This document shows, piece after piece, positions 553 through 20,861 of a DNA stretch of 25,510 nt. The stretch spans positions 1-25,510 of the IMG/VR virus record IMGVR_UViG_3300023180_006811; one strand, given 5' to 3'. The notes beneath the pieces were generated by a model. That model ran no database searches and was not told the origin of the DNA. It saw only the letters and a program-made list of their open reading frames with translations. Both the position numbers and the translations under genes were made by a program. Source of the stretch: a virus. Positions within the stretch are counted from its first letter, which is position 1. Each line of letters begins with the position of its first letter.

Positions 553-1188
553 TTATTTGTTAGCGAGACGATTGAAAATACGCTCTGTAAGGGCATCAAT
601 GTTAGAAGCCTTCTTGTTCTCTGCCATAAGACGCTGAGCAACGCGAGCGGCGATACGATTGACGCGAGCCTCCATGAGGTCCTCGTCTCCTGGCTCCTCG
701 TCGTCCATGCTCATGTCCATTTCCATGTCACCCTCTGGGGCATCCATATCCATGTCCATCTCCATGTCAGCCGCTTCGTCATCACCTCCCTCGTCGGCTT
801 CCATGTCCATATCGGTGCTAACTTCCTCACCGGTGACATCCTCAAGAGCAGACTCAAGAGCGGAAAGGAAATCATCTAAATTAATCTGAACACCTGCACC
901 TGCACCCATGTCCATGTCCATCTCAGGCTCGTCCATTGGCTCCTCAGCAGGCTTATCCATATCCATTGGCTCCTCTTCGGCAGCCATGTCCATCTCAACC
1001 TCTTCCTCTTGCTCTTCAAGAGACTTACCGGCAGGATCTTCGTCCTGAACGTTCTCGTCGTCCTCATCGCGAGCACCAGGAGGCATTCCATACATCTCTT
1101 CGAGACGCTCCTGACCAACTGGCTTCACGTTTGCAAGTTTCATGAAGCGACGAATCTCGGATTCGTTTAAAAGTGTCTTACGAGCCAT
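553..1188 (-). CDS. Highly acidic Met/Asp-repeat phage protein (possible scaffold)
   Basis: A 211-residue protein with three parts. The N-terminal helical segment (1-40) contains RRFMKLANVKP. A long acidic low-complexity middle (about 40-170) is dominated by Asp, Glu and Met, with many MDMD units and almost no basic residues. A basic amphipathic C-terminal helix pair follows (about 172-211, RVNRIAARVAQRL). Repeated ATG-GAC codons make the DNA itself repetitive between about 700 and 980. The N-terminal motif resembles, from memory, proteins of uncultured marine phages. Possible roles are internal head scaffold or a disordered DNA-mimic protein; neither is shown by the sequence. An AAGGAG ribosome site lies upstream of ATG 1188. 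The gene ends at the strong terminator at 485-518, so it closes its transcript. Confidence 0.8.
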   Translation of the reverse strand: MARKTLLNESEIRRFMKLANVKPVGQERLEEMYGMPPGARDEDDENVQDEDPAGKSLEEQEEEVEMDMAAEEEPMDMDKPAEEPMDEPEMDMDMGAGAGVQINLDDFLSALESALEDVTGEEVSTDMDMEADEGGDDEAADMEMDMDMDAPEGDMEMDMSMDDEEPGDEDLMEARVNRIAARVAQRLMAENKKASNIDALTERIFNRLANK

Positions 1189-6285: not shown

Positions 6286-6289
6286 TCAA
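6261..6289 (-). promoter_or_regulatory. Sigma-70-type promoter upstream of the dut/methyltransferase operon
   Basis: Minus-strand TTGACT (6289-6284), a 17-nt spacer and TAAGAT (6266-6261) with an extended -10 (TGG). It lies in the 50-nt gap after purA and in front of the genes from 6235 leftwards. The -35 matches 5 of 6 and the -10 matches 4 of 6. Confidence 0.55.
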
Positions 6290-7272
6290 ACAAATTCTGG
6301 TGAATCTGAAAAGAAAATCTCATCAACACAAGAAGGAACAGCAGAGCGAAGATAAGCCCTGATGGCCTCTTCGTCCTTGAAAGAGAGATTTGGATTATTT
6401 ACGCCCCAAGAAGCGACCTCTCTCAACACATCCATCTTGTTGAAAATCAACTTGTTTACACCATTCATAAGAATGGCTTGGTTTAGTTGCTGGAGGTTTA
6501 GCCAGTTACACTGACGAACGCGACCAGTGGTTGCTCCAAACTCTGCACCAGCCTGTTGAATGCGGTTGAATACAGGATTATTTGGCTGAAATTGCTTCTT
6601 GCCAACATAAGTCTCATAAATTTTTGCGATGCCCCAGACATTGCGTAGAGAGCGAGGATTAACGCCGTTAAGGAGCGCTGCGGCTACTCCACAGTGACTT
6701 GAAGTAACATAAGGATAATCACCCCAATCAGGGTCCAACCAGAAGCCTTGTGCCCCTTCCATAAGGATTACAGGCTCTACATCGCTGTTATGTAGTTCTT
6801 CATAAACATCAATAAGGAAAGGCTTTAGAAATGGAACATCAGCAGCACGAATACCGGTGCGAGCATACTTATCGCGGTAAGCAGGACCATTGCCAGATTT
6901 AGTGGTTCCAATCTTTTCATCCTTTGAGTCCTCTGCTACATGAGCATCAGTAATAATGTGAACATTGCTGGCAATCTTCAAGTTATCTTTTAGGTTGATT
7001 CCTCCTCTGGAAAGGATATCCATCTCTTCCATCAGTTTGTCTACATTTAGTACACAACCGGGACCAATAATAGATGGGATACCAAAAAATACACCAGCAG
7101 GAATATGGTGGGTAATAAATTTGGTTCCTTCGTGGTAAATCGTGTGACCGGCATTGCAACCCCCATTGAACCTGATACAATGGGTGTACTCACCACTCTT
7201 CAAAAGATGGTGGGTAACCTTACCCTTACCTTCGTCTCCGTGTTGAAGACCAATAACAATGTCTGTAATCAA
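6286..7272 (-). CDS. purA: Short-type adenylosuccinate synthetase (PurA/PurZ family)
   Basis: A 328-residue enzyme of the family that joins IMP and aspartate with GTP to make adenylosuccinate. Motifs: GDEGKGK (12-18) with catalytic Asp13, NAGHT with His43, IGTTKSGNGPAYRDK (IMP loop), EGAQG, PYVTSS, GATTGRVR (aspartate/IMP loop with both outer arginines kept), and NKMDVL (guanine contact). Bacterial PurA has about 430 residues; this lacks roughly the last 100, like archaeal short forms and phage PurZ. As I recall, PurZ (dGMP-using, 2-aminoadenine pathway) replaces the catalytic Asp; here it is present, so the IMP reaction is favoured. The TTG start at 7272 overlaps the upstream stop (TTGA) and follows GAGGAGG. 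Product processing would need host PurB. Confidence 0.92.
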   Translation of the reverse strand: MITDIVIGLQHGDEGKGKVTHHLLKSGEYTHCIRFNGGCNAGHTIYHEGTKFITHHIPAGVFFGIPSIIGPGCVLNVDKLMEEMDILSRGGINLKDNLKIASNVHIITDAHVAEDSKDEKIGTTKSGNGPAYRDKYARTGIRAADVPFLKPFLIDVYEELHNSDVEPVILMEGAQGFWLDPDWGDYPYVTSSHCGVAAALLNGVNPRSLRNVWGIAKIYETYVGKKQFQPNNPVFNRIQQAGAEFGATTGRVRQCNWLNLQQLNQAILMNGVNKLIFNKMDVLREVASWGVNNPNLSFKDEEAIRAYLRSAVPSCVDEIFFSDSPEFV

Positions 7273-13216: not shown

Positions 13217-13789
13217 TTACCTCGCTGCTAAAGCGATCTTGCAAATATGCTCTAATCTTTCAATATGCTCAAATGCTTCCCATGGATTTCTGCCAACAGC
13301 ACAAACACCGTGCTGTGCTTGTCCTACAATGTCAAATTTGATCTTTCCATTTACAGTCATTTTATCGAATGTATGTTTTGCCAACTCTGGGCTAATTGCT
13401 GGCAAAACAGGGACATTGTGGGCAACCTTGGTATATCTATAAATCTCTGGAAACTTTGTTGCTAATTCCTGTAAGTCATATCCTGCCATCATAGCAGCAA
13501 TAGTGTATGTTGGATGAAGATGTAAAACAGAGCGAGTGCTACTATGAGAATTTTGAAGTAACCAATGCATCTCTAATTCACCGGATGCTCTTTTGGAATA
13601 AAGCAACTCACCATTGATGATTGGAATACGAACAACTGTTTCAGGATGAATAATATTCTTTCTCACTCCTGACGGTGTAATATAAAGCATATCCTTGCTC
13701 TTTCTCTTCAAAGAACAATTTCCGTCTCTGGTGGTAATCCAGTTACGCTTATATGCTTCACGCATCACATCGCCAATCGCAGTAATCAT
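13217..13789 (-). CDS. Class II aldolase/adducin-family protein
   Basis: A 190-residue protein of the zinc-dependent class II aldolase family, which includes L-fuculose-phosphate aldolase, ribulose-phosphate 4-epimerase and related enzymes. Visible: NWITTRDGNCSLK (substrate loop), ITPSGVRK, ELEMHW with a possible acid-base Glu near 74, HLHPTYT near 88 (two zinc-ligand histidines), and QHGVCAVG near 157 (third histidine). Length matches the family (about 200). ATG 13789 overlaps the thyX stop (ATGA). Such an enzyme cleaves or epimerises phosphorylated sugars. In a phage it could serve surface-sugar or nucleotide-sugar chemistry with the two unknown genes downstream. The exact substrate cannot be read. 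Confidence 0.85.
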   Translation of the reverse strand: MITAIGDVMREAYKRNWITTRDGNCSLKRKSKDMLYITPSGVRKNIIHPETVVRIPIINGELLYSKRASGELEMHWLLQNSHSSTRSVLHLHPTYTIAAMMAGYDLQELATKFPEIYRYTKVAHNVPVLPAISPELAKHTFDKMTVNGKIKFDIVGQAQHGVCAVGRNPWEAFEHIERLEHICKIALAAR

Positions 13790-14484
13790 TTTCTAATTTC
13801 CCTATATGCTCCCACAGTCTCTGGATACAAATCAGTAGCAATATCTAAACAGGCTTCGGCTACTTTCTGAATTTCCCACTGTGCCCCCTCGTGAGTTCGA
13901 AGGTCGATAAACTTAAGTAGATTAGAAAGATTGCAAGTTCCATAATATTCGGTATACATTGTTTGAGGAAGAATGCCACGAGCCTGCTCTCGACATACAC
14001 CAACATTCAAAAGATCCTTGAAAAGTTTATAAGCAACTTCAGTGTGCTCCCTATACATCTTTGATGCTTCCCAGGATCCCCAAGCCATAATCGGATCGAT
14101 CAACTCATCTTCATTGCTAGCCTGACGATTTGATTTATGTTGAGTTCTGAACTTGTTGGGCGTATAGAATCTAATGTCAAAGTCCGTATATCTTCTAGAA
14201 ATTTCATTGTAAGACCAAGTTCTATGACGATGATGCTGGCTACGCACAAAAAGAGGTACGACAAAACGAAAAGTAATAACGTTATGTTCAAGAGTAGACG
14301 TGTGTCTGTGCTTGATGAGATATTTGATGAGTTTTCTGTCTTTTTCATCTATCTCCTCCTTTTGCTTTCCGAAACTAACGCGAGCACTATTAACAACTGT
14401 AAGATCGTCGCCCATATGGCTAACATAATCTACTCTCCCGATCTCGTCATTATACAGGTAAATAGTTTTTTCGTAATCTTTCAC
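13786..14484 (-). CDS. thyX: Flavin-dependent thymidylate synthase ThyX
   Basis: A 232-residue FAD-dependent enzyme that methylates dUMP to dTMP with methylenetetrahydrofolate and NAD(P)H. The diagnostic ThyX signature RHRTWSYNEISRRY lies near residues 82-95, and C-terminal RGILPQTMYTEYYGT with LRTHEGAQWEI form the dUMP and flavin site. Length is typical (about 220-250). The start is GTG 14484 with TAGGAG eight nt upstream, inside the short gap behind the PilY1-like gene; the ATG next to it is out of frame. With dut and nrdJ it completes a dTTP supply route independent of host ThyA. Confidence 0.96.
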   Translation of the reverse strand: MKDYEKTIYLYNDEIGRVDYVSHMGDDLTVVNSARVSFGKQKEEIDEKDRKLIKYLIKHRHTSTLEHNVITFRFVVPLFVRSQHHRHRTWSYNEISRRYTDFDIRFYTPNKFRTQHKSNRQASNEDELIDPIMAWGSWEASKMYREHTEVAYKLFKDLLNVGVCREQARGILPQTMYTEYYGTCNLSNLLKFIDLRTHEGAQWEIQKVAEACLDIATDLYPETVGAYREIRK

Positions 14485-14495
14485 ATAAACTCCTA

Positions 14496-17400
14496 TTAGA
14501 AAACTTCTCTTATCATCATAGTTTTTGTACCCTTAAAAGGGTCAGCAACAACAGACATCGTAGAGATCCCGTTGTTATCGTCAAAGTTGGAACTACCCCA
14601 GATTACTTCTCCTTGATCGGTGATTGTAATGCTGCTGGGGTATCCATCAGTCTCAATGTATTCAGCATTAGCCTGCCCATCACCGTTAGTATCTATTCCT
14701 CCTTCACAAGTATTATAACTCATTCCACGGATTTTTCCAAGCCCATTCTCACAACGATCTTCATTTGGCGTGTAAGTAGGGAAATACACTACACCTTGAT
14801 AGGCAATAGGGTTACCAGTAAGTCCTTCGCCCTCATCCATTTCAAGATAGCCGCCGGTGCAAATAGGCGTTGCTGTTGTGGGACAGGACATAGGGCTCTC
14901 ATCAATAAAGCCAAAAACATAGCCTGGATCGCTGTTTAGCCTATCGTATGGGCTGCCAGTTCCCCAATAAACACCTAAACTGCCGTCTGTATGCCAAGCA
15001 GTTGTAGAGGCATAATAAACCTCTTGTCTTGCCTCAACATAATCGTATGGATCAACAAACTCACACCATTCTGGGTTATCTAAATCGCTTGTATCAATAA
15101 CTGCTTTATAAAACCAAGTGTGTCCTGGATCAGCGATGTCTGATACTCCGCTTGATGGATCGTAACTAACTGTAACAGGAAAGTAAATAACATCGCTATC
15201 ACCGTCGGAATCAACATCAACAACGCTAACAGCACCAGAAATGTAGCCGTATTCATAAGAGCCGTCAGTATCTAAATTTACTGATGACCCTGGTTCTGGA
15301 TGAATGTTTATGCCTGCTCTATCAAAATCAACAGCATCGTAATAAGAGTTTAAATAATCATCGCTGATGTGATGAAAATAAAGGTTTGGCTCTGATGATT
15401 TATAGTAATCTGCGGAACTTGCGTATGGAACCGCTCTACCACTACCCCAAATAACCGTCCATCGGTCGTGTGGCTCGTTTTTATCATAAAGATTAGCAAC
15501 AACAGGACGAGAAACAGAATAACCCATAGCAGTATGATCTACATCATCATAAACTTGCGGCCCAAGGTGTTCCCATAGGTATTCTGGCTGGGCTGGAATG
15601 CTGATGTCCAAAGCCAAAGTCGTTGGTCCGCCTTTTCCTTGCTGAACAACAACAACACGATGCCACTCACAGTTAGTTGGAAAACTTTCTAATGAGCACT
15701 CTTTTACACCATCATTATCAGCGTCGATCCATACATCCTCCACGACAGGCGAGCCATCAAACAAAAAAGTTCGCCCATACATCATAAGGTCTGTAAATTT
15801 TCCGCTCCAATCCTCGGAGGTGTCGTTATAAAGGGCGTAACTCAAAGCCCAGCCCCAAAGTTCTTCACCTGCCTGCTCATCATCCTCATCAGTGCTCAAT
15901 GATGACGCAGGGCGGTCCAGGTAGTCTTCCAAGGCGAACGCATGGAGGATCCCGTCATTCGCTGGAATGAGAACAATGTTAGGATAGAGTTCAGGATAAT
16001 CGTCGTGAGCATCTTCAAGTCCTTTTAAAAATCTTCTGTATGTCACATCAGAAGAATAAGTGTTATTTCTGGCGGTTACTACCACCGGGGTTGCATGTGG
16101 AGAGTCTCCTAACTTCCAGTATCCTCTTTCTTGATCAAGATAACGGAAAGTTGCTGTTGGTAGTCCTCGCGTAAAATCAATAAGGTATTGTAAATCGTCT
16201 GTATCAACATCATCATCTTGATCAAAGTCGTGAGCAAGAGTAGATGTATCCAAATAAGTGTCTAATAAACCAAAGGTATCAACAGCATCAACAAAATCAG
16301 CATCTAAATCCATCCTTTTTGTGCTATTTGTCCCAGCAGGGTATCTTTCAGACCACACGGAGTCGCTTGGGCTTACATGTATTGCTAGTTCTTCACTAAA
16401 TGTAAAAATGTTTCTCTGACCGAAGCCATCAGGTAAATCAGGGTTTGTTTCTGATGATAACACAGGACGAGACACAAGCAAATCACCAGCATCCCAAATA
16501 GCACCACCAAACTGTGATGGTCCATCAGTTGTAATGTCACCATCTTCGTTGATGCCGTAGGCTCTAACGTGACCCTGTGCTAACGGCGATCCTCTCTCGT
16601 CACTTGTCCCTGTAAGACCAGCAATCTCATAGAAAGAATAAATAAGATAATCACCCTCTGCCGTAACGATTGGGGCAGACCTTGAATAGTAGCCTGCTCT
16701 GATGTCGTTGAGGACATACATAATCTTTGATAAGATCTCATCGCCTTCGTTTGCGACAAGATACATACCATCGCCATCAGTTGCTTCGGAAGCAGAGCCA
16801 AAAAGGTCTTCTGAAAGAGAAGAGCCATCTACTCTAATGCCAACCGTATGCGTCAGAATGTTTTGATCATCAGATAAGTCAGGGCGCGCATCAAACTCGT
16901 TATAAAGACTATAAACCACATTATCATACAAGCACCATTCATCAGTAGCACCGTAAGTATGCGATGAATCACAAGTAACATCTCTCGGCATTCCAGATGT
17001 AAGACTCAAATCTCCATCAATGTCGTCATCGTAAGAAGGAATACCCGCTGTAATGGTGACTACGTGGATTTGCTCACAATCGTAATCAATAACAGAGTTT
17101 CTGCCTCTGCGAGAAACATAATCACTTACAGATTGTAAAGTTTCAGCAAGGTTTCTTGTGTCCGTAGAGTGAGCAGATACAGAAGATAATGCGTTTGAGA
17201 TCTCGGAGTTGGATGAGCCAACAGGGGCAATCTCATAAAAATCAGTTTCTGACTCTGAATCAGATGTTCCAACTACGCCAAACTTTGCCCAGTCGTAATG
17301 CTGTGTTACTTGATCAATAGCATCAATCGTGTATTCTAAACAAGTTTTAGTGATAGCAGCATCAGCGATACCAGAATCACCATAAGCACCGCAATTGTCG

Positions 17401-17531
17401 CCCATTTCAGCAGATAAATCTACAAGAAAAACAATCGTAGGAGGGACACCCTCAATAGTTGATAAAAACTCGTCACCAGCACTGGTGCTAGCAGCACTGG
17501 CGATTGATTGCCCCAAGAGCAGATAAAGCAT
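14496..17531 (-). CDS. PilY1-like protein (type IV pilus tip adhesin homologue)
   Basis: A 1011-residue protein. It starts with a short hydrophobic segment ending SIASAAS, a weak signal peptide without a basic n-region. Residues about 30-290 look like a von Willebrand A domain (VFLVDLSAEMG, an imperfect DxSxS metal site). The C-terminal half reads as the PilC/PilY1 beta-propeller: ANDGILHAFALED, GEELWGWALS, HRVVVVQQGKGG, VIWGSGRAV. A calcium loop VDVDSDGDSDVIY (near 770) matches the DxDxDGxxD site of PilY1. PilY1 of bacteria is about 1100 residues and sits at the pilus tip, governing retraction and adhesion. A phage copy is unusual. It follows a secreted acidic protein by 1 nt. Alternatives: virion spike, or a bacterial gene picked up. 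Confidence 0.82.
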   Translation of the reverse strand: MLYLLLGQSIASAASTSAGDEFLSTIEGVPPTIVFLVDLSAEMGDNCGAYGDSGIADAAITKTCLEYTIDAIDQVTQHYDWAKFGVVGTSDSESETDFYEIAPVGSSNSEISNALSSVSAHSTDTRNLAETLQSVSDYVSRRGRNSVIDYDCEQIHVVTITAGIPSYDDDIDGDLSLTSGMPRDVTCDSSHTYGATDEWCLYDNVVYSLYNEFDARPDLSDDQNILTHTVGIRVDGSSLSEDLFGSASEATDGDGMYLVANEGDEILSKIMYVLNDIRAGYYSRSAPIVTAEGDYLIYSFYEIAGLTGTSDERGSPLAQGHVRAYGINEDGDITTDGPSQFGGAIWDAGDLLVSRPVLSSETNPDLPDGFGQRNIFTFSEELAIHVSPSDSVWSERYPAGTNSTKRMDLDADFVDAVDTFGLLDTYLDTSTLAHDFDQDDDVDTDDLQYLIDFTRGLPTATFRYLDQERGYWKLGDSPHATPVVVTARNNTYSSDVTYRRFLKGLEDAHDDYPELYPNIVLIPANDGILHAFALEDYLDRPASSLSTDEDDEQAGEELWGWALSYALYNDTSEDWSGKFTDLMMYGRTFLFDGSPVVEDVWIDADNDGVKECSLESFPTNCEWHRVVVVQQGKGGPTTLALDISIPAQPEYLWEHLGPQVYDDVDHTAMGYSVSRPVVANLYDKNEPHDRWTVIWGSGRAVPYASSADYYKSSEPNLYFHHISDDYLNSYYDAVDFDRAGINIHPEPGSSVNLDTDGSYEYGYISGAVSVVDVDSDGDSDVIYFPVTVSYDPSSGVSDIADPGHTWFYKAVIDTSDLDNPEWCEFVDPYDYVEARQEVYYASTTAWHTDGSLGVYWGTGSPYDRLNSDPGYVFGFIDESPMSCPTTATPICTGGYLEMDEGEGLTGNPIAYQGVVYFPTYTPNEDRCENGLGKIRGMSYNTCEGGIDTNGDGQANAEYIETDGYPSSITITDQGEVIWGSSNFDDNNGISTMSVVADPFKGTKTMMIREVF

Positions 17532-17532
17532 T

Positions 17533-18951
17533 TTATTCCACGATGTTTAGGTCAAAATCATAAGTCCAAGAAGATTCGCCGGTAGCAACCCTTCCGTTCT
17601 CGTCATCTCCAGCGGAAGAAACTGGCTCTCCAGCCTCGTTGATGCGTCCATCATTATCAACATCAGCATAAGCCCAAAGATAAGCAACAGTATTTGCTGG
17701 AACAATCATCTCATATTCAAGATCATCACTCTGAACCTCTGAAGGATTGAACGCCTCATAATCATAACCATCAACAAGATCACTAACGTTCACATCGCTA
17801 GTAGGACGATACTTGAGAGCACTAACATAAATAGATGTAGTCTCTGGCAACTCAACAAGAGTATTCACATAGCCACTGATACGAACAAAAGGAGTAAGGT
17901 CAAGACCATCGTAATCACCATAAGGAATTTGAACGTCTGCCTCTAGAGTAGCAACAGAAAGTTCAATAGGGTTTGCGCTCAATCCATCAACCATATAGAC
18001 GCCCCAAGTGTCACCAGCAGGATCGATAATTCCATTATAATTTGAGTCATAAGCACCAACCAAGTTCATCTGCGACGGATTATCGCAAAAAGTCATAGAA
18101 TAAGGACCAACAGCACCACCGCCACTCTCCTCCATAACAGACCAAACAGAATTGTAAGGTCCGTTCCCTTCAGTATCAAGCAGCATGGCGCTAGCATCAC
18201 CGCCGGCATAAGAGGTGGTGATAATCACTTCGCCAGTAAGGAGGCCAACATTGCAATAATCACCCCAACCTCCGCCATCATCACTGCCATAACCAGAACC
18301 ATAGCCCCAGCCACCATAGTTTGAAGAACCATCCCAGTAAGGAACAAGAATGTTGATGTCAATTCCGGTAATAATGTTGTAATCGTCGTTAGTGTCTGGG
18401 TCATAAATCACATCCGGGTAGTTGCCGATAGGATCAGCGGTTCCAATAATGCCATCATCCCAATAATCACTAGCAGCGTAAATCCTGATACCACTTACAT
18501 CATCTTCGTGGATCTCAAACTCAAACTTGTCACCATCGATGTCCGGGCTGGCGATAGAAACCTGATCTACATAAATCTCCTTGCCATCTTCAGCATAATA
18601 TGCTGCTACAAAATTAGAACCAAAAGGATAAAAACCATTATAAGCATCCCAATCAATATAAATGTATTCTCCATCTTGATCAAGCGTATAAAGGCTTACA
18701 GTCACAGTTCCTTGAACAATGGCGTGAAAGCCGCCGTCATCCTTGGTAAACTCGGTATCAATAGTCTTATCTTCCTCAACTACATAAGCAGTATCGTCAT
18801 CCTCTGGATTTTCAGAGGTTAGCCCATTGCCGCCATCAGTAAGTCCAGCAGTCTCCTGATCCAAGATAAGAAAATCACTATCACTACAAAGCGGTGCCAT
18901 CAAAAATGGCGAAGCAAAAATAAGTGGAACAATGTAGTTTTTAGTCTTCAT
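17533..18951 (-). CDS. Secreted acidic protein, possible lipoprotein
   Basis: A 472-residue protein from ATG 18951, preferred over ATG 18966 because GAGG lies six nt upstream and a good signal peptide (MKTKNYIVPLIFASPFLMAPLC) then begins directly. The Cys after APL could be lipidated, but the lipobox is poor. The mature part is very acidic, rich in Asp, Gly and Tyr, and predicted beta-rich. It contains calcium-type loops such as DSNYNGIIDPAGD and DVDNDGRINEAGE and a Gly/Tyr-rich stretch around 210-235. No family is recognised; Asp-loop proteins of this style are common in secreted proteins of Myxococcota-like bacteria. It lies between endolysin and the PilY1-like gene and may be a surface partner of the latter. 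Confidence 0.78.
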   Translation of the reverse strand: MKTKNYIVPLIFASPFLMAPLCSDSDFLILDQETAGLTDGGNGLTSENPEDDDTAYVVEEDKTIDTEFTKDDGGFHAIVQGTVTVSLYTLDQDGEYIYIDWDAYNGFYPFGSNFVAAYYAEDGKEIYVDQVSIASPDIDGDKFEFEIHEDDVSGIRIYAASDYWDDGIIGTADPIGNYPDVIYDPDTNDDYNIITGIDINILVPYWDGSSNYGGWGYGSGYGSDDGGGWGDYCNVGLLTGEVIITTSYAGGDASAMLLDTEGNGPYNSVWSVMEESGGGAVGPYSMTFCDNPSQMNLVGAYDSNYNGIIDPAGDTWGVYMVDGLSANPIELSVATLEADVQIPYGDYDGLDLTPFVRISGYVNTLVELPETTSIYVSALKYRPTSDVNVSDLVDGYDYEAFNPSEVQSDDLEYEMIVPANTVAYLWAYADVDNDGRINEAGEPVSSAGDDENGRVATGESSWTYDFDLNIVE

Positions 18952-19846
18952 GAATAACCTCATCAATTAGTTCGCCAATCTCTAAACCAGCACAATCAAT
19001 CTTGCCCTTATAGCAGTGGTAGTGACTAATGACACCCTCAAACTTACCATAAACAATCTCTTTCTCATACTTGGTAGAAACCTTGCCAAACTGGTTAAGT
19101 TTAGTCTTTAGTTTTACATTTGAAGCACTAGCAACCGCTTTCCAAAGGGCTTTTGCTGCTTCAATCTGCTCTGGGTAGAAACCCATAAACGGATCAAGTT
19201 TTACGCCATTTACCCAAGCATCTTCAACCATTGGGCGTTCGCCGTAGCCATTATTTACATACCAATCTTGATACTTCGGATAATAAGCATTGCTGATCTC
19301 GACGCCAACAGAAGCACGGTTTACACGCTCATTGCCAGCGTGCCAAGCACCATGCTGCATGTCCATTGTCTGATAGATAGTTCCATCGTTATCAATCAAA
19401 AAGTGAACAGAAATGCCGTTCTTGTTCAGAACATCGTTGCAACTTCTGGAGTTCAAACAAACATCCCAGTGGTTTACAAAAAGGCGAACATTTCGCTTTG
19501 GACGACCAGAATAATCATAATAATTTCCAGCAACAGCAGATAAGCCATCACTTTCAGACCAAAGAATAACCTTGTCCCACTCAATAGGCACAAAATTGCC
19601 ATTATACACAACGTAATTAGAGTAATTTGGGTTAGTCGGCTTGTAATCATCAATATTTGATTGACGCTCGGTCCAAACTCGACGATAAGTGGATGGACCA
19701 CACATGCCATCGGCGGTAAGGCTGTTTGCCTTCTGCCACTTTTTGATAGCCCTTACAAGTTTTTCATCAAAATAACGCTCTCCAAACCACGATGGTGCCC
19801 ATCCAAGTTTAGCAGCAGAGGCTTTATTATAAAAATTCTTATCCAT
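18941..19846 (-). CDS. N-acetylmuramoyl-L-alanine amidase endolysin
   Basis: A 301-residue enzyme that cuts the amide bond between MurNAc and the stem peptide for lysis. The N-terminal segment about 25-60 (LVRAIKKWQKANSLTADGMCGPSTYRRV) is a peptidoglycan-binding type 1 repeat. The catalytic amidase_2 domain follows, with VNHWD near 124 (zinc His), SVHFLIDNDGTIYQ, and GAWHAGN near 168 (second active-site His); a third zinc ligand is expected around HYHCYKGKIDC at about 276. No signal peptide is present, so a holin or other release route is needed; none was recognised here. The start ATG 19846 has AAGGAA nearby, directly after groES. It overlaps the secreted protein gene by 11 nt. Confidence 0.92.
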   Translation of the reverse strand: MDKNFYNKASAAKLGWAPSWFGERYFDEKLVRAIKKWQKANSLTADGMCGPSTYRRVWTERQSNIDDYKPTNPNYSNYVVYNGNFVPIEWDKVILWSESDGLSAVAGNYYDYSGRPKRNVRLFVNHWDVCLNSRSCNDVLNKNGISVHFLIDNDGTIYQTMDMQHGAWHAGNERVNRASVGVEISNAYYPKYQDWYVNNGYGERPMVEDAWVNGVKLDPFMGFYPEQIEAAKALWKAVASASNVKLKTKLNQFGKVSTKYEKEIVYGKFEGVISHYHCYKGKIDCAGLEIGELIDEVIHED

Positions 19847-19857
19847 AAAATGGTTCC

Positions 19858-20139
19858 TTAGTCTTCCAAAAGTCCTACTACATAATTATCAAGGATAATT
19901 GTAATAGTCTCATTATTTATGCTGATTTTTTCGATCATACTTTGATCAATTACAACTTTTGTCCCTTCTTTTAGTTGATAATGAAACCGAACATCAGTGG
20001 CAGATGAAACCACATCGGCAACAACATATCTCTCCTCCTTTGGACTATAGTCGTCCGGGAGAACAATGCCAAAGTCATCTAAATCCTGTTCTGGCTTTTT
20101 GATCTCAACATGAACATATCTATTTACTGGAACAAACAT
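19858..20139 (-). CDS. groES: Phage GroES-type co-chaperonin
   Basis: A 93-residue Cpn10-fold protein. The sequence starts MFVPVNRYVHVEI. A mobile-loop region ends DDFGIVLPDDY, where the hydrophobic IVL should bind the GroEL rim as in GroES and T4 gp31. The barrel strands EGTKVVIDQ and ITIILDNYVVGLLED complete the fold. ATG 20139 is preferred to ATG 20151 because GAGG sits four nt upstream and the gene then begins after the HNH stop. It likely remodels host GroEL cages for folding a large phage protein. It is transcribed from the promoter at 20169-20197 within the HNH gene. Confidence 0.88.
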   Translation of the reverse strand: MFVPVNRYVHVEIKKPEQDLDDFGIVLPDDYSPKEERYVVADVVSSATDVRFHYQLKEGTKVVIDQSMIEKISINNETITIILDNYVVGLLED

Positions 20140-20147
20140 TTTACCTC

Positions 20148-20861
20148 TCAAATTTCTTCATTTCTATTATTATACGCTATTTTCTTGCATAAGTCAATGA
20201 AATAATCTTGATCAAAAGTCCTTTTCATCATATTCACATCCTTATGAACCCACTGAACATTACCTTCTATATAACCCTTTGAACTATCAATGCGATCAAG
20301 TGAAGCAGTTTTATCACTATTGTTCTTTTGACCAAAGTAAATTTCAATACCTGAAATATTACACTTTCTATCTTGATCTAGAAACAAGCCCCACAAATAT
20401 TCAATTGAAACTTCAAAAGGAATCTTTTTTCTTGTTTGATGTTTGTATCTATTAGTAGCGGAGTTCTTGTAAGCATTATAAATAGATCTATGGATCTCAC
20501 CATAACCATCAAAATTGAAATGCTCGGATCCTGTTTTCTTATTCAAGCAGCCACAAGATCTAATTTTACCTGATACTAGGTGAGTTGCTAGCACCTGCTT
20601 TTCACAGCCGCAAGAGCACTCACAAAGATACCTTTTATGACCATTTCTAGTCGTTTCAAGGGGCTTCAAAACTTTTAGCATACCAAAAGTCTTACCGGAT
20701 AAATTACCAACCCTAGGGGTTTTCTTTGTAAGTTTTAGTGCTCTTGCTCTTGTATAAACTGAACTCTTTGACCTGTTCAACTCTTTCGCTATTTTATCAG
20801 CGGGTATCTTACCATAGTTTTCAATAATGAAAGTATCTTCTTCGCTTGTATAAAGGGCCAT
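20148..20861 (-). CDS. HNH endonuclease, free-standing homing type
   Basis: A 237-residue protein. Residues about 5-45 form a Myb/SANT-like helix-turn-helix (YTSEEDTFIIENYGKIPADK). Residues about 50-108 hold a Cys-rich strand module (CECSCGC, CGCL) common in phage intron and homing nucleases. The C terminus has an HNH core: CNISG, SLDRIDSSKGYIEGNVQWVHKDVN (Asp/Arg and the last His-Asn pair visible). Such enzymes cleave unmodified sister genomes to spread themselves. It lies immediately 3' of nrdJ, a gene often targeted by homing elements, after a 146-nt gap with repeats. An AGGAGG seven nt upstream supports ATG 20861. The stop touches the groES ribosome site. Confidence 0.9.
   Translation of the reverse strand: MALYTSEEDTFIIENYGKIPADKIAKELNRSKSSVYTRARALKLTKKTPRVGNLSGKTFGMLKVLKPLETTRNGHKRYLCECSCGCEKQVLATHLVSGKIRSCGCLNKKTGSEHFNFDGYGEIHRSIYNAYKNSATNRYKHQTRKKIPFEVSIEYLWGLFLDQDRKCNISGIEIYFGQKNNSDKTASLDRIDSSKGYIEGNVQWVHKDVNMMKRTFDQDYFIDLCKKIAYNNRNEEI
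20169..20197 (-). promoter_or_regulatory. Strong promoter for groES inside the HNH gene
   Basis: Minus-strand TTGACT (20197-20192), a 17-nt spacer and TATAAT (20174-20169), 11 of 12 consensus bases. It lies in the last codons of the HNH gene, 30 nt ahead of the groES start, and should drive groES, endolysin and the genes behind them independently of the HNH gene. Confidence 0.75.

Follow-up and report, generated by a model that had tools for sequence, protein, structure and literature searches.

The DNA analysed here (the window) is a stretch of 25,510 nucleotides from an IMG/VR record (IMGVR_UViG_3300023180_006811). The gene under study lies on its minus strand, between thyX on the right and, on the left, a gene for an acidic protein followed by an endolysin gene. 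The features to which the text refers are the following:

14496..17531, minus strand: PilY1-family protein of 1011 aa (bacteria-only PilY1 HMM, hhalign, Foldseek)
17493..17531, minus strand: signal-peptide-like N terminus MLYLLLGQSIASA, residues 1-13, read from the sequence
16680..17456, minus strand: VWA domain, residues ~26-284 (PF13519, alignment, predicted fold)
14532..16118, minus strand: PilY1 beta-propeller, residues ~472-1000 (profiles, alignment, predicted fold)
15936..15962, minus strand: PilY1 signature ANDGILHAF, residues 524-532 (23-row alignment)
15192..15218, minus strand: calcium motif 1, DVDSDGDSD, residues 772-780, in register with the P. aeruginosa site
14499..14510, minus strand: C-terminal REVF, counterpart of bacterial PilY1 WRE(V/I) (alignment)
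17533..18951, minus strand: acidic, exported-looking protein of 472 aa, likely starting at the ATG at 18951 (MKTKNYIVPLIFASPFLMAPLC...), within the ORF 17533-18966
18941..19846, minus strand: N-acetylmuramoyl-L-alanine amidase endolysin with a peptidoglycan-binding domain (PF01510, E 1.4e-17; phrog_1493)
13786..14484, minus strand: thyX, right neighbour of pilY1 (PF02511, E 2.6e-51)

The pilY1 ORF begins with an ATG, with no alternative start codon before the upstream stop. The sequence-only reading had described its product as a PilY1 homologue combining a VWA-like N terminus, a PilC/PilY1 beta-propeller and a DxDxDGxxD loop, and the comparisons bore out each of these points. A profile built from twelve bacterial PilY1 proteins and zero phage sequences matched residues 34-989 of the window protein with an E-value of 4.4e-63. 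Against 1,563 ORFs taken from the loci of related phages, the same bacteria-only profile matched the copy in a sister phage contig alone; the controls (50 shuffles, the reversed sequence and other window ORFs) were silent. Alignment to bacterial PilY1 with hhalign gave a probability of 100 (E 7e-43, 780 columns), and the single match of phmmer against solved structures was P. aeruginosa PilY1, 3HX6 (E 6e-4). The PF05567 match (E 8.8e-6) scored 18.1 bits, under its cut-off of 28.1. According to BLAST, the closest bacterial relative is L089, a PilY1 of 940 aa with ~25% identity, which adjoins minor-pilin-like genes.

The N terminus is signal-like by reading alone: it is short, its n-region carries no positive charge, and its end matches, by eye, the signal/mature junction of L089. 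The VWA domain was matched by PF13519 (E 3e-4, residues 33-143, below the curated cut-off) and by VWA folds with Z ~18 over residues ~26-284 in the second of two structure aligners. Although the fold is matched, a full MIDAS (DxSxS, T, D) is absent from the domain: in D38-x-S40-x-E42 the third Ser is replaced by Glu42, T125 is kept, and TDG has become T161-A162-G163. In the propeller, ANDGxLHA is invariant across the 23-row PilY1 alignment. The calcium motif 1, Dx(D/N)xDGxxD, is present in many PilY1 members, not in all. Following its definition in PMC13190605, it is represented here by DVDSDGDSD, aligned with the P. aeruginosa PilY1 calcium site, and a second calcium-type motif, DADNDGVKE, begins at residue 603. 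At the C terminus, the near-invariant Trp is replaced by Ile (IREVF versus bacterial WREV); this near-invariance comes from our own alignment and is not a published criterion, and some bacterial rows also lack the Trp.

The AlphaFold model of the protein has a mean pLDDT of 60 and a pTM of 0.66. Its top Foldseek match is 3HX6 (E 3.7e-15), and the second aligner returned 3HX6_B with Z 19.9 over residues 482-1000 (379 aligned, 23% identity); the PilY1 propeller fold is therefore present in the model and the homology is not refuted by it. The input alignment of the model included bacterial PilY1s, so that this evidence is partly circular and not independent. Moreover, since other propellers score equally high in the second aligner, the fold alone cannot name the family, which is named by the sequence.

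The sequence profile, the fold and the calcium motif place the product of 14496-17531 in the PilY1 family, as a full-length member. It departs from the family in the terminal Trp, in the MIDAS and in the absence of pilin neighbours; membership does not strictly depend on any of these. Operons of pilY1 with minor pilin genes are frequent, not universal; a motif search over 91 phage sources, covering the window and the related loci, yielded no prepilin-like ORF.

Two observations concern expression signals. At 17473-17503 (minus strand), inside the first pilY1 codons, lies a terminator-like hairpin of 12 pairs that carries a T-rich tail and could be an attenuator or a chance occurrence; the region has 11 terminator-like sites where 5.2 would be expected. 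The coding strand showed no T4-like late promoter (TATAAATA).

As regards the neighbours, the gene had been placed between thyX and an endolysin block. This was correct for thyX, which follows directly, whereas the endolysin gene is not adjacent, since the ORF 17533-18966 intervenes. The gene for the 472-aa protein ends one base upstream of pilY1, and the protein matched no known family; its predicted structure has a pLDDT of 27. Its interpretation as a lipoprotein was dropped, the lipobox being non-canonical (APLC). A third contig harbors a relative of 84-85% identity with the same start, beside the amidase gene. PilY1 and this neighbour are both unusually acidic (18-19% D/E and 3-5% K/R), and most window genes differ from them in this respect.

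Other genes of the window were recorded as well. A 211-aa protein (553-1188, minus strand), in which 32% of the residues are acidic and Asp-Met is repeated, keeps its position across the phage group. A guaB-like (IMP dehydrogenase) gene at 1812-2840 and a purA-like (adenylosuccinate synthetase) gene at 6286-7272, both on the minus strand, were recognised by eye; guaB occurs in 65 and purA in 10 of the fetched loci. An HNH endonuclease with a helix-turn-helix-like N terminus (20148-20861, minus strand) lies between nrd and the GroES-like gene at 19858-20151; a GroEL-like gene was located by eye in a 195-kb relative (L148:14548-16125).

A search with the DnaE polymerase retrieved at least 588 relatives, 80 of which were fetched for comparison. 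Their loci share a conserved gene order (exo, dnaB, nrd, groES, amidase, slot, p302, p290, dnaE, dnaJ, dut, trx, guaB), some of the related records reach 195-203 kb, and one 195-kb relative carries sheath-, terminase- and GroEL-like genes (ORFs read by eye). The genes flanking pilY1 are typical of this group. Furthermore, the sister contig contains the last 587 pilY1 codons at 94% identity and repeats the thyX junction, its order (pilY1-thyX-aldolase-p302-p290-dnaE) being the same as in the window, and the junction between the amidase and its neighbour recurs in the third contig. A misassembly or a segment of bacterial chromosome could be invoked on the grounds that pilY1 itself was found in two contigs only; given the repeated junctions and the phage-group flanks, we regard it as extremely improbable. 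The gene is phage-borne and not on a bacterial chromosome, in agreement with the phage-like block previously proposed. Over the sequenced overlap of the two phage copies, dN is 0.031 and dS 0.61 (dN/dS ~0.05), and pilY1 is under purifying selection in that overlap.

The gene is rare in the records searched. The bacteria-only profile matched the record of the window and that of the sister contig, and none of 13 other phage records, three of them of 195-203 kb; a mixed profile had no match in 28 phage records. Since the other group phage records examined are without pilY1, the gene is not generally needed in the group. The tblastn search of 50,697 phage records with the phage protein and Legionella PilY1 as queries retrieved no relatives, and scans of INPHARED revealed no other phage PilY1. 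In IMG/VR, scans with peptide patterns, a degenerate ANDGxLHAF DNA pattern and a bacterial PilY1 alignment retrieved the sister contig only; such scans depend on an exact match to a short motif, and divergent copies can escape them. Four further IMG/VR pattern matches were discarded, being in no PilY1 frame. In the papers and records searched we found no earlier description of pilY1 in this genome type, and no paper on a PilY1 encoded by a phage, which agrees with the sequence-only reading, which knew of none. Two literature matches were set aside: that for Mx9 is a mere reference-list mention, and that for an Alteromonas inovirus concerns host genes.

As to the donor, no close relative was retrieved by scanning bacterial genomes, and in two trees the phage branch, of 2.5-2.8 changes per column, has no supported neighbour. 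PilY1-family proteins of ~1,600 aa, branching apart, were observed in Pelagibacteraceae (L098, L100, L102-L106, L108-L110, L114-L116).

The amidase gene marks the left edge of a variable slot. Among 58 loci, which include near-duplicate contigs, the gap from the amidase to p302 is shorter than 300 bases in 29 and spans 552-2574 bases in the other 29. In the window the slot contains the genes for the 472-aa protein, PilY1, ThyX and an aldolase II; thyX is itself variable in the phage group, being present in 9 loci. The slot fillers of the relatives are often exported-looking. One type (L018:1197-1733 and similar) is a protein of ~178 aa that the matrixin family matches (PF00413, E 7.6e-6). Another (L082:3501-4691 and similar), of ~395 aa, starts with a signal-like stretch, contains a linker that is acidic and rich in DTG, and has a Cys-hydrophobic-Arg tail at the C terminus; in NCBIfam it is best matched by myxosortase substrates (E 0.0016 at best, 3 of 9 members), and TIGR03901 matched one member with E 0.083. 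A phage-borne cell-surface sorting signal, such as this MYXO-CTERM-like tail, would be notable by itself. PMC11980579 describes MYXO-CTERM as universal among the Myxococcota, and the presence of MYXO-CTERM-like proteins in the slot is a hint, no more, of a Myxococcota-like host for the phage group; none of the bacterial genomes searched for MYXO-CTERM proved to be Myxococcota.

The likeness to the matrixin-like and MYXO-CTERM-like proteins of the relatives' slot bears on the possibility that the phage PilY1 is an exported surface adhesin or envelope protein unconnected with pili, acting with the 472-aa neighbour at the surface or in release at lysis. The single base between the two genes, their common acidic make-up and the lack of prepilin-like ORFs in the 91 phage sources would fit such a role. 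The PilY1 members studied so far, however, act with pili (PMC13190605, PMC7541494), and the phage protein has kept the propeller signatures and the terminus; we hold this reading to be rather doubtful.

The same context weighs on the option, raised by the sequence-only reading, of a virion tip or tail spike whose PilY1/VWA head would bind receptors. Only the size and the adhesin-like make-up of the protein speak for it, and it appears improbable: the N terminus is signal-like, the company is exported, and the gene lies outside the structural module, in a nucleotide-metabolism and lysis block that in the 195-kb relative is ~10 kb from the sheath-terminase block. Moreover, pilY1 is missing from relatives possessing the sheath-terminase block, and the protein had no PHROG match.

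Most likely, the phage PilY1 is an exported cargo that joins or jams the tip of the host type IV pilus. In bacteria, pili are primed and tipped by PilY1 together with minor pilins (PMC7541494, PMC13190605), and some phages are known to exclude superinfection through proteins that disable type IV pili (PMC11436027). As no phage minor pilins are visible, the phage protein would have to use those of the host. In principle, we can depict the following sequence of events:

i. The phage PilY1 would be exported by Sec during infection and would fold around calcium in the periplasm.

ii. Its propeller would dock on the host's own minor pilins, and new type IV pili would be primed and tipped by the phage VWA head in place of the host PilY1.

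iii. The grip or the retraction of the pilus would change; pilus-using rival phages would be shut out, or the attachment of the infected cell would be altered.

That the pilY1 of this large phage was acquired horizontally, has long diverged and serves as host-surface cargo re-tipping the pili of its host is, in our estimation, just short of an even chance. The family match over both domains, the calcium motif in register and the conserved REVF argue for cargo, as do the purifying selection, the repeated gene order, the exported-looking slot and the shared acidity; the shortness of the signal-like N terminus and its uncharged n-region stand against re-tipping. The more specific proposal, in which infected cells extend pili primed and capped by the viral PilY1 and thereby re-target adhesion or block rival phages, is tentative and somewhat below that level.

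With a degenerate MIDAS and without the near-invariant Trp at its C terminus, the protein could be impaired in docking on the pilus. This leads to a dominant-negative variant, in which the phage PilY1 would enter the priming complex or the secretin and, for want of the Trp and of a full MIDAS, stall it, leaving no working pili; the result, superinfection exclusion, would resemble that of the known phage pilus inhibitors. Other phages do switch pili off (PMC11436027), and in M. xanthus pilus extension is blocked on loss of PilY1 or of the minor pilins (PMC7541494). The retention of the calcium motif, the VWA fold and the entire propeller is nevertheless more than a mere blocker seems to need, and the overlap of the two copies is under strong purifying selection; we judge such a decoy unlikely.

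If the preferred reading of an exported cargo at the pilus tip is compared with known systems, the phage protein shares the VWA head and the propeller, as well as ANDGxLHAF, LGD, calcium motif 1 and the terminal RE(V), with bacterial PilY1 (the P. aeruginosa 3HX6 C-terminal domain, M. xanthus PilY1.3 with its VWA, and the short L089 type). Unlike them, it is phage-borne, has no adjoining minor pilin genes, shows ~25% identity to the best relative found, and has a degenerate MIDAS, no terminal Trp and insertions in the propeller. The slot cargo of the relatives occupies the same position behind the endolysin, with proteins unrelated to PilY1. Type IV pili are also the target of known phage inhibitors (for example Tip and Aqs1, which act against PilB, and Pf phage proteins); the phage PilY1 would act on this host organelle too, and the outcome could match. 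The inhibitors disable the assembly machine from the inside, whereas the phage PilY1 is homologous to the tip protein itself, which is exported.

A phage with its own tip protein, if this is true, would represent a different strategy, in which the organelle is reprogrammed rather than disabled. The phage PilY1 is also a natural test of the features required for tip assembly, namely the calcium site, the MIDAS and the terminal Trp.
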